A DNA stretch of 43,893 nt from a virus, in the IMG/VR virus record IMGVR_UViG_3300037225_000060, positions 1 to 43,893 of that record; one strand, written 5' to 3'. The notes under the pieces were generated by a model. That model did not search any database, was not told the DNA's origin, and saw only the letters and a program-made list of their open reading frames with translations. The position numbers were made by a program, and so were the translations under genes. Shown here piece after piece: positions 3,610 to 37,655 of this stretch. Within the stretch, counting starts at the first letter, position 1. Every line of letters begins with the position of its first letter.

Positions 3610-3642
3610 TTTTATACAACATATTTAAGCAAGGATTAAACC

Positions 3643-3677
3643 AAGCGCAATTTGAGAAATCAGGTTGCGCTTTTTTA
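3643..3677 (+). terminator. Rho-independent terminator before scaffold gene
   Basis: An 8-bp stem AAGCGCAA (3643-3650) and TTGCGCTT (3665-3672) with a 14-base loop, followed by a run of T. It sits between promoter copy 2 and the scaffold gene, so it may be partial, setting the ratio of the short transcript to the head-gene transcript. Confidence 0.8.
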
Positions 3678-3697: not shown

Positions 3698-4690
3698 ATG
3701 GACGACAACAAGGAAAAGGAACTGGAAGTCAAAGACCAAGAAAATGAGGAAGAACTCGATGAGCAATCTTCTGAATTTCAGTCTGATGACGAACAGCAAT
3801 CCATAGACCGAGTAGAAAGCCTACTTAAAAGTCAGGGAAAAGAAGTTGAGCAATCTGAAGTAACTGAAAAGGTTAAGAAACCCGAAGAAGTTACAGAAGA
3901 ACTCAAACCGGAAGTTCCTATGATTGACGAGGCATTAGCCTCACAATATCCCGTATTGAAACCTAATATAGGCAAACCACAGTCAATTATACCAGACCTA
4001 TATGCGAAACTTCAAAGGGAATTAACTAAACAAAGACAAAAGCCCCAACCCACAGAGATTAAGGAACCCGAATTAGGAGAAATGCCCGATCCGGTAGACG
4101 ATCCACAGGCTTTTAAGGAATGGCTCAAACAGGCAAGGGAAAGAGACAGAAAAGAGGCTAAAGATGAAGTTTTGAAAGAAATGGAATCCCGCCTTACACC
4201 TTTTCAGGAACAGGTTATTCAAAAGACCCAAGAGGATGTAAAATATGCAATCTCTGAAGATTTGAATGAATTTGTTGAGGAAGGTAAGTCTTTTGATTCT
4301 GATGAAGCTATCAACTATTGGAAAGAACAAAACGCCTCAAATTTGTATTTGGAGGATGGAGAATTGAACACGGATTTTACGCATTTCTATGACGTAAATC
4401 CTAAAAAGTTTGTTCAGGAAGTCACTAACCTTTACAGACTTAAACAGCTCACATCCAATAAACAAAAGACCGCAGAGGAAATCAAAGCCGATAAGTTGAA
4501 AACAGATGCCGAAGCGAAGAAAAAAGCAGCTGATTTGGTTGCTAAGAATATTCGGGATGCCAATAACTTAAAAACTAAAGATAAAGAATTAATCAGATTC
4601 AAAGTACCTGATGATCGTAAAGAATTAACCCCTGAGGAGAAGTTGTTAGGTGATGTCTATTCAATCACAGAACAAGAAAATAACGTTTAA
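3698..4690 (+). CDS. Capsid scaffolding protein
   Basis: 330 residues, very rich in Glu, Lys, Asp and Gln with almost no Cys, predicted largely helical and coiled-coil, with an acidic disordered N-terminus and a basic, Lys-rich helix near residues 255-290. It lies directly before the major capsid gene. This composition and position are typical of internal scaffolds that guide procapsid assembly and then leave. A head-protease function is not supported: no Ser/His/Asp motif is visible. An AGGA site precedes the ATG. Confidence 0.8.
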   Translation: MDDNKEKELEVKDQENEEELDEQSSEFQSDDEQQSIDRVESLLKSQGKEVEQSEVTEKVKKPEEVTEELKPEVPMIDEALASQYPVLKPNIGKPQSIIPDLYAKLQRELTKQRQKPQPTEIKEPELGEMPDPVDDPQAFKEWLKQARERDRKEAKDEVLKEMESRLTPFQEQVIQKTQEDVKYAISEDLNEFVEEGKSFDSDEAINYWKEQNASNLYLEDGELNTDFTHFYDVNPKKFVQEVTNLYRLKQLTSNKQKTAEEIKADKLKTDAEAKKKAADLVAKNIRDANNLKTKDKELIRFKVPDDRKELTPEEKLLGDVYSITEQENNV

Positions 4691-30906: not shown

Positions 30907-31139
30907 TGGAAACCAAGTACACACAAGAACAAATTGATGAAATGGCTAAGAAGATCGGGACTTTAGAACATTACGGAATGTGTATGGCATGGAGAAATGC
31001 CAATGCCGGTTCGCCCTATTTCCGAAATGATCTGATTACATCCGAAGGTAAAAGCTTAGGCGATATTTACCAAGAAAGACTATTCGGACACTTCGGGGGA
31101 TTCACTCCCGAAATATCGAAATCAATAGGGTGGGACTAA
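30906..31139 (+). CDS. Conserved phage protein of unknown function
   Basis: 77 residues ending Y-Q-E-R-L-F-G-H-F-G-G-F-T-P-E-I-S-K-S-I-G-W-D, a C-terminal pattern I recognise from small proteins near phage recombination modules. Overlaps its neighbours on both sides. Function unknown. Confidence 0.6.
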   Translation: METKYTQEQIDEMAKKIGTLEHYGMCMAWRNANAGSPYFRNDLITSEGKSLGDIYQERLFGHFGGFTPEISKSIGWD

Positions 31140-31951
31140 TGGAAAACATTGACGGTGTAGATTATTTGAGAGTATCGGAAATCAATTCATATTTGGAATG
31201 TCCGAGTAAGTTCTACTTCCAAGCTATTGAGAAAGTAGAGACTCCGAATAAGATAGCACTTGCCGGAGGAACGGCTTATCACTCAGCATTAGAGATTAAC
31301 TATTCCCAAAAGATAAAATCGAGAACTGATTTACCGATTGCCGATGTAGTGGACGCTTTTTCTTCTGAATACGATAAGGAAGTTTCTTTTGTTGATAAAG
31401 TAGATTTTGATATTGAAACCCCTGGACAAGTCAAAGACGCTTGGATTGATGTTCTTAAAATTTACATGAAAGACGTTGCATACAGAATATTTCCGGCAGC
31501 AGTTGAGAGAAGGATTAAAGCAAAATTAAAAGGCTATACATACGGGCTTACTGGGAAGATCGACATTAAAGATGAGGATGCTGTAATTGTTGACCATAAG
31601 ACCACTAGCAAACCCTATAAAACCATTCCTGAAAACTATAAGATTCAAGTTGGTGGCGGTTATTGTTTGCTCGATAAAGCACTTACAACTTCTGATCCTG
31701 AAAATATGCCTACTAAATCAGCGAGGATAGATTATAATATCAGGAAATCCCCCAAATCTCCGAAAGCTGAAGTAAGAAATATTCAGGTTGATATTGATAT
31801 CCCCTATTTCCTAAATGTATTTGAACAAGTTTCTAATGGAATTAGTGCCGGTGCATTCCCGCCAAATAGAGGGTTCATGTACTGCACTAAAAGGTTTTGC
31901 AAGTTCTGGGAAGTTTGCGAAGCCAAATATAAAGGTCATGTAAGAGAATAA
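31139..31951 (+). CDS. Cas4/RecB-type PD-(D/E)XK nuclease with Fe-S cysteines
   Basis: 270 residues from the ATG at 31139 (TAATG overlap). Conserved order: Cys21 in Y-L-E-C-P-S-K-F, the G-T-A-Y-H-S-A-L-E motif (about 46-54), the catalytic core I-D-I-K-D and V-I-V-D-H-K-T-T (about 140-157), a Gln motif in Y-K-I-Q-V-G-G-G-Y, and a C-terminal cluster Y-C-T-K-R-F-C-K-F-W-E-V-C (about 248-260). Cys21 plus the three C-terminal Cys would bind a 4Fe-4S cluster as in Cas4/AddB. Probable 5'-3' or resecting exonuclease partner for the annealing protein at 32091. Confidence 0.8.
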   Translation: MENIDGVDYLRVSEINSYLECPSKFYFQAIEKVETPNKIALAGGTAYHSALEINYSQKIKSRTDLPIADVVDAFSSEYDKEVSFVDKVDFDIETPGQVKDAWIDVLKIYMKDVAYRIFPAAVERRIKAKLKGYTYGLTGKIDIKDEDAVIVDHKTTSKPYKTIPENYKIQVGGGYCLLDKALTTSDPENMPTKSARIDYNIRKSPKSPKAEVRNIQVDIDIPYFLNVFEQVSNGISAGAFPPNRGFMYCTKRFCKFWEVCEAKYKGHVRE

Positions 31952-31952
31952 C

Positions 31953-32043
31953 AGTGGCTATAAAAAGACTTTCACAGCGTTAAGCCGGTTGCCCGGAAGT
32001 TGCCAAGGTGAAAGATGTGTCGGTAGGCGGACTCATAGCCACT
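31953..32043 (+). ncRNA. Structured RNA candidate, class unknown
   Basis: A nested fold visible by eye: outer 9-bp stem AGTGGCTAT (31953-31961) with ATAGCCACT (32035-32043); inner 7-bp stem CTTTCAC (31969-31975) with GTGAAAG (32008-32014); inside it CCGG-TTGC-CCGG (31985-31996). The 3' internal-loop strand (32015-32034) is G-rich. It lies in the 139-base gap between the nuclease and annealing genes, the gap's only structured part, more GC-rich than its surroundings. Not a tRNA and no riboswitch I recognise. Could be a riboswitch, ribozyme, small RNA or processing element. Confidence 0.7.
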
Positions 32044-32090
32044 AAATATTTAATAATAATTATTTCATAACTAAAAAAAAGGAAAGAGAG

Positions 32091-33191
32091 ATGAACGAGA
32101 ACAGTAATTTTGAAGTAGAGACTATTCAGTCTCTTGATAGTAATGCCATTGACCGAGCCATTGAGGGCGGTGGTTTAATGCAAACAAAGGCACAATATAC
32201 TACTGCGGTTCAGGTAATCCGCAAAAGAAACATTGACGCTATTATGTTAAGCGTTGAAAAGGAGGCTTCTTTAGCTGGGGATGATTTCTATTATGCTTGG
32301 GGACAGGGAGCCGGTTATATCGAAGGTATCTCCATTGTCGGTGCTGAAATTCTTGCAAGACTATGGGGCAACTGCGCTGTTAATACAAGGGTTGAAGAAA
32401 AGGGAGACAGCTTCATTTTTTACGGTGATTTTATTGATTTTGAAACCGGCTATAATCTTACCCGTCCTTTCAGAACTTCCAAAAAAATACTTTTCAAAAA
32501 AGACGGTAAAACAGCTATCTATGAAAAAGAAAGAAATGATGATATAGTATTCCAGATAGGTGTTTCCAAGGGGTCAAGAAATGTTATAGTCCATGCCATA
32601 CCAAGATATGTCCAGGATAAAGCAATCTCTAAAGCAAAAGAAGGAACCAAAAAACTTCTTGAAAAAATGGGTATAGAAAAAGCCACGCTAATGATTATCG
32701 GCAAAGCGACCAAGGTAAAGGTTCCGGTTGAAAGGATAGAATCAAATTATGGTAAAAAAGAAAGATGGGATATTGAAAGGCTTATTCTTATCTCCGGTGC
32801 GTTAAGAACCATTGAGGATGGCTACGGTACTATTAACGATGTTTTCCCGCCTGAAGAAGGAGAGAAGCCAACAGATGATAATGACAAGTCTCCAATAACT
32901 ACCGATAAGAAGCCTGAACCCGAACAGCCAAAAGAAAAAGAAATCATCATCGAGGGTGCCGGTGTAGTTGATGAAAAAACAGGCGAAATTATAAAGGAAG
33001 AACCCGCGAAAAATCCCTTTGAACGTGGCGCACAGGGATTCTATTTGTTTGAAGTTGGTAAGATAAAAACGAAAGAAGATTATTCCGATTTTGAAAAAAC
33101 CTATGTCGCCGAGATTACGAAAAACTTTACCGGACAGAAACTTGCTCAGGTAAAGAATGCTTTGGCAGCGAAAGAAAAGGAACTTAAATAA
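32091..33191 (+). CDS. Putative single-strand annealing/recombination protein
   Basis: 366 residues. AAGGAAAGAG before the ATG. The N-terminal 250 residues form a compact alpha/beta domain with G-A-E-I-L-A-R-L-W-G, F-I-D-F-E-T-G and S-R-N-V-I-V-H-A-I-P-R-Y; the remainder is a charged Pro/Glu/Lys linker (about 255-300) and a short helical tail. Following a DUF1351-like gene and a Cas4/RecB-type nuclease, it occupies the place of a RecT/Erf/Rad52-type annealing protein. I do not see a diagnostic Erf or RecT motif, so the function is inferred from context. Confidence 0.5.
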   Translation: MNENSNFEVETIQSLDSNAIDRAIEGGGLMQTKAQYTTAVQVIRKRNIDAIMLSVEKEASLAGDDFYYAWGQGAGYIEGISIVGAEILARLWGNCAVNTRVEEKGDSFIFYGDFIDFETGYNLTRPFRTSKKILFKKDGKTAIYEKERNDDIVFQIGVSKGSRNVIVHAIPRYVQDKAISKAKEGTKKLLEKMGIEKATLMIIGKATKVKVPVERIESNYGKKERWDIERLILISGALRTIEDGYGTINDVFPPEEGEKPTDDNDKSPITTDKKPEPEQPKEKEIIIEGAGVVDEKTGEIIKEEPAKNPFERGAQGFYLFEVGKIKTKEDYSDFEKTYVAEITKNFTGQKLAQVKNALAAKEKELK

Positions 33192-33210: not shown

Positions 33211-33226
33211 GGGAGGGAAGCCTCCC
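33211..33226 (+). terminator. GAAG-loop hairpin after annealing gene
   Basis: GGGAGG (33211-33216), loop GAAG, CCTCCC (33221-33226), followed by ATTTATT. Same A-C-G-G-G design as at 5902 and 7424. Could be a weak terminator. Confidence 0.65.
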
Positions 33227-37545: not shown

Positions 37546-37566
37546 TTATAACATAGTAAATAAAAT

Positions 37567-37633
37567 ATCCCCTGGAGTGTTGTGTTCTCCTTACCGAGAC
37601 CATAACTCAGTTGTCGCCAACTACTCCGGGGAT
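37567..37633 (+). promoter_or_regulatory. Hairpin before homing endonuclease gene
   Basis: Outer stem ATCCCC-T-GGAGT (37567-37578, one bulged T) with ACTCCGGGGAT (37623-37633), and an inner 5-bp hairpin AGTTG-TCGC-CAACT (37609-37622) stacked against it. TTTT follows. It could terminate transcripts from upstream, or block the endonuclease ribosome site as hairpins do for some T4 homing endonucleases. Confidence 0.65.
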
Positions 37634-37655
37634 TTTCTATTTTATGGAGCCTACC

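Follow-up and report, generated by a model that had tools for sequence, protein, structure and literature searches.

A folded element of 91 nt lies on the plus strand of a phage genome at positions 31953-32043, between the gene for a PD-(D/E)XK (RecB/Cas4-like) exonuclease (31139-31951, plus strand; Pfam PDDEXK_1, E 6e-18; PHROG exonucleases) and the gene for a probable single-strand annealing protein (32091-33191, plus strand). The window examined in this study is the whole IMG/VR record IMGVR_UViG_3300037225_000060, a stretch of 43,893 nucleotides with a GC content of 36%. Its first 127 bases are the same as its last 127 and the phage record looks complete, with a large terminase that can be identified as well as a P22-like portal and an SU10-type major capsid protein. 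In cellular genomes, the terminase has its best relative (about 50% identity) on a contig of 5.5 kb; the genome in question shares its class with an Ignavibacteria MAG, which weakly suggests a host in that group. The terminase relatives were dropped as a source of homologous loci, since they contained no detectable nuclease/annealing pair. Protein relatives of the two genes that flank the element are remote (about 20-30% identity), and the lineage is therefore poorly sampled; comparison of a nuclease alignment with genomes and IMG/VR yielded no close nuclease relative.

The product of the downstream gene belongs to PHROG 3657, a family listed as of unknown function. Its AlphaFold model (pLDDT 81) had no significant structural match in the PDB, and no Pfam or NCBIfam match lent support to the assignment. 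Among the viral models of BFVD, the protein's own family was recovered first, and the annotated matches that came after it included Bet, essential recombination function (ERF), Rad52, and RecT proteins, at E values of about 7e-4 to 1e-2. Several relatives of the gene have PD-(D/E)XK nucleases nearby; in two phages, Geobacillus phage TP-84 and Bacillus phage vB_BpsM-61, an ERF-type annealing protein is encoded behind a related nuclease. The modeled fold thus points to a likely annealing protein of the Rad52/ERF/Bet type, and to have PHROG 3657 as an annealing protein family would be a modest gain in itself. The identities that the original prediction gave to the two neighbors are upheld, by Pfam for the nuclease and purely by predicted fold for the annealing protein. 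The 3' end of the nuclease reading frame, directly upstream of the element, itself contains two long hairpins (31842-31930) that score z -4.9 against synonymous codon shuffles in a hand-picked window; a coarse scan of the whole genome gives comparable extremes elsewhere, and for this reason we do not claim that the block forms part of a larger RNA.

The gap between the two genes measures 139 bases, of which the element takes 91. A single base separates the nuclease stop codon from the start of the element, and 47 bases separate its end from the ATG of the annealing gene. Three helices of 9, 7, and 4 bp had been predicted within these 91 bases, and all were found at the expected places, the first two being perfect. 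P1 (9 bp) pairs AGTGGCTAT at 31953-31961 with ATAGCCACT at 32035-32043; P2 (7 bp) pairs CTTTCAC at 31969-31975 with GTGAAAG at 32008-32014; and the inner 4-bp hairpin, CCGG-TTGC-CCGG, occupies 31985-31996 (arms 31985-31988 and 31993-31996), all on the plus strand. The helices had been described as nested, which holds for P1 and P2; the predicted fold is, however, a three-way junction rather than a simple nest. P1 closes the junction, P2 bears an inner 3-bp helix together with the 4-bp helix, and the third arm is predicted to be a weak 3-bp hairpin, GTC-GGTAGGCG-GAC (32019-32032, plus strand), which contains the G-rich strand GGTAGGCGGAC (32022-32032) that had been singled out beforehand. A pseudoknot search returned weak, mostly AU pairings and no pseudoknot of note. 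The element contains no open reading frame of at least 30 codons, and ARAGORN finds no tRNA or tmRNA, in agreement with what had been read from the sequence. Its GC content of 51% stands against 36% for the genome, a value that 17 other places match.

The gap had also been called AT-rich. This is true only of its 3' third (32044-32080). The leader of the annealing gene (32044-32090, plus strand) is A/U-rich, predicted to be mostly unpaired, and carries a Shine-Dalgarno-like AGGAAAG before the ATG. Only three places in the genome reach 37 or more A/T in 40 bases, the segment 32041-32080 being one of them, and of 38 gene leaders this one ties for the most A/U-rich and is among the less paired. 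In the mRNA context the purine-rich Shine-Dalgarno run is predicted to be largely unpaired, and the AUG and the last bases of the leader to be mostly paired.

We tentatively read the element as a cis-acting structure in a polycistronic phage mRNA, set between the cistrons for the nuclease and the annealing protein; we regard this as possible and as the foremost of the readings considered. This reading covers the position and strand of the element with the fewest assumptions. In its favor, the nuclease gene, the element, and the annealing gene are co-directional, with the element immediately between the two genes, the structure is predicted to be stable within its mRNA context, the nested GC-containing helices exceed shuffled expectation, and a terminator-like hairpin, GGGAGG-GAAG-CCTCCC followed by ATTTATT (33211-33226, plus strand), stands after the annealing gene. 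In such an arrangement, the transcript of the nuclease gene would extend across the element and include the annealing gene, and the folded 91 nt behind the nuclease stop codon, if formed in vivo, would act as both a barrier and a stabilizer. The element might thereby restrict translational coupling of ribosomes that come from the nuclease cistron; it might also protect the 3' portion of the message from RNase or else offer RNase a site. The adjoining unpaired A/U-rich leader would leave the Shine-Dalgarno sequence of the annealing gene open, so that, as we propose, the annealing protein could be made independently of the nuclease. Because no relative of the element is detectable in the collections searched, an ordinary local element of mRNA control or stability is the most likely explanation, and not a demonstrated new RNA class; nothing in the observation needs a new kind of system, and if the structure is merely an intercistronic hairpin it is ordinary.

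One comparison for such a structure is with RNase III-type intercistronic hairpins, with which it shares stems with internal loops between the cistrons of a co-directional operon. Processing hairpins of this type occur in phage polycistronic mRNAs, for example the early mRNA of T7. The double-stranded runs of the element are, in contrast, short (9 and 7 bp) and interrupted by the junction, whereas RNase III recognition calls for about two turns of near-continuous double-stranded RNA. Intrinsic termination, which the original prediction had also doubted, does not fit: no terminator is called at 31953-32043, a call that needs a GC hairpin followed by a T run, and the sequence after the stem is AAATATTTAATAATAATT. 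The element has no U-tract and is therefore not a plain terminator.

Several findings count against a cis-acting function. The paired state predicted for the AUG and the last leader bases is one. Another is that a gap of at least 80 nt precedes the relative of the downstream gene in only 9 of 78 loci, with gene starts called mechanically, so the element does not accompany the PHROG 3657 family as a conserved feature. In one such relative locus (L117), the 120-nt gap holds a very stable, near-perfect hairpin with arms GGTGGCGCTGACAGCCT and AGGCTGTCAGCGTTCACC, unlike the element in the window. Finally, since no homologue of the element was found, there is no sign of selection on its structure.

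The strength of the fold bears on whether the element is instead a structure that arose by chance or neutrally within a non-coding gap, unselected and picked out by scanning the whole window. We consider this unlikely, although it is the most serious of the alternatives. On the plus strand the minimum free energy is -28.7 kcal/mol, with a modest z of -1.99, and 8 of 200 shuffles are as good, which favors chance and weighs against a cis-acting element. Perfect 9-bp inverted repeats are ordinary per se (15 in the window versus 16.5 in shuffles), several other spots in the window fold equally well or better, the element is placed high, though not first, among intergenic stretches, and no conservation is detectable. 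Chance accounts poorly, however, for the combination of helices: nesting of a 9-bp P1 (4 or more G/C) around a 7-bp P2 (3 or more G/C) is observed once, as compared with 0.017 per shuffled window. The shuffling was local and the G/C thresholds were chosen once the element had been seen, so that this rarity is moderate evidence; without the GC conditions, joint 9- and 7-bp nesting is observed twice versus 1.2 in shuffles. Chance is further disfavored by the fact that the gap is unusually long and GC rises locally where the element lies, and by the minus strand, which folds at -30.8 with z -4.08 and is equaled by 0 of 200 shuffles. This stronger fold of the minus strand would not be foreseen for an mRNA element of the coding strand, and in that respect it also counts against the cis-acting reading.

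A more specific form of control is suggested by analogy with gene 32 of T4, where unstructured A+U-rich sequence, over 40 nt long, connects a folded element to the AUG, and the single-stranded DNA-binding protein represses its own translation (PMC3014915, PMC535899). By this analogy, annealing protein in excess over single-stranded DNA would bind the folded element, then spread along the unpaired A/U-rich leader and cover its own ribosome-binding site. The operators of T4 and RB69 gene 32 resemble the predicted layout of the present locus in having an upstream fold and an unpaired A/U-rich run into the ribosome-binding site; their product is a single-stranded DNA-binding recombination protein (PMC3014915, PMC535899), and here a 47-nt A/U-rich gap leads to the AUG of a product that resembles an annealing protein by its predicted fold. 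The similarity is one of layout alone. The T4 operator has a pseudoknot of about 28 nt with UUAAA repeats after it, whereas the element is predicted to form a three-way junction of 91 nt in which no clear pseudoknot is seen, followed by a leader whose last bases and AUG are predicted to be mostly paired; there is no sequence relation, and the probable Rad52-type protein downstream is not predicted to be an OB-fold SSB. Relatives in the family mostly have no such leader, and the layout can come about by chance in an AT-rich genome. The operator of T4 gene 43 likewise forms an RNA structure, some 40 nt ahead of the start codon of a replication/recombination gene, but it consists of an 18-base hairpin-loop with sequence overlapping the ribosome-binding site (PMC3014915); the structure here is far larger, and 47 nt separate its end from the AUG. 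We judge autogenous repression by the annealing protein to be an unlikely explanation; if true, it would mean that control in the style of gene 32 reaches beyond OB-fold SSBs to annealing proteins of the Rad52 type.

Searches for relatives of the element bear on the idea of an undescribed RNA. The Rfam comparison that had been proposed as a check was run at gathering and at permissive thresholds over 4227 families and gave no match to the element, which is therefore not of a described class; the sole permissive match, outside the element, was to T-box at 10.1 bits against a threshold of 93. Core nucleotides of hammerhead, twister, twister-sister, pistol, SRP, and tRNA-like RNAs, compared by eye, were absent, and no model of these matched. 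Searches of phages and plasmids with blastn, including distant settings, produced chance-level fragments only, and an exact 21-base core found no relative in IMG/VR. The gapped internal-loop pattern AGCGTTAA-N10..16-AAGTTGCC had 118 matches in IMG/VR, which were ranked by flanking complementarity and fold; none had the architecture of the element, and the top-ranked match looked unrelated and apparently coding. A single-sequence covariance model (R1) recovered only the element itself when run on the window, on 176 loci that had been fetched, on 50 records in full, and on 294 genomes from the class of the Ignavibacteria MAG, the likely host class. A model built on one sequence detects near relatives, and these negatives therefore limit close rather than distant homology.

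It is quite improbable that the element is the first known representative of an RNA class not yet described (a ribozyme, a ligand switch, or an autogenous operator of Rad52-type annealing proteins) from poorly sampled phages, with its other members missing from the searched collections. Still more improbable is an independent RNA of an undescribed class, be it a self-cleaving ribozyme, a ligand-binding riboswitch, or a trans-acting small RNA. The compact branched fold and purine-rich joining strand, features shared with the ribozyme and riboswitch classes of Rfam, speak for it together with the failure to match any of those classes, permissive filters included; yet functional classes normally recur and no relative appeared in any collection tried, the element has no promoter call and no terminator, and no conserved junction sequence can be demonstrated. 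A DNA-level site for replication or recombination (a hairpin with an AT-rich unwinding patch), or a remnant of a small insertion bounded by inverted repeats, is equally improbable: a GC hairpin does adjoin one of the three most AT-rich patches, both DNA strands are able to fold, and 9-bp terminal inverted repeats are present, but there is no GC-skew extreme at the element, inspection by eye reveals no target duplication at its flanks, and the window contains no second copy.

Other structures and motifs were observed in the window. A stronger structured stretch lies at 37562-37646 (119-nt fold z -4.3, with 0 of 200 shuffles as good), where a branched CCCC..GGGG stem and then a T-rich run directly precede a gene for a GIY-YIG/NUMOD3 homing endonuclease. 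Translational brakes are known for phage homing endonucleases (PMC3014915), and the stretch may be such a brake or a terminator-like insulator. It shares the loop GGTARG with the element at 31953-32043 if one of the two is read on the other strand, a likeness that we judged to be chance; R1 misses the stretch. The motif TTTCGACTTTATT occurs on the plus strand at 2465, 3392, 24143, and 40973, shortly before gene starts and with a mismatch in one copy, and is a candidate for a promoter element of the phage. At 3642-3675, shortly before the reading frame that begins at 3698, lies AAGCGCAA..TTGCGCTTTTTTATT, which looks like a canonical intrinsic terminator.
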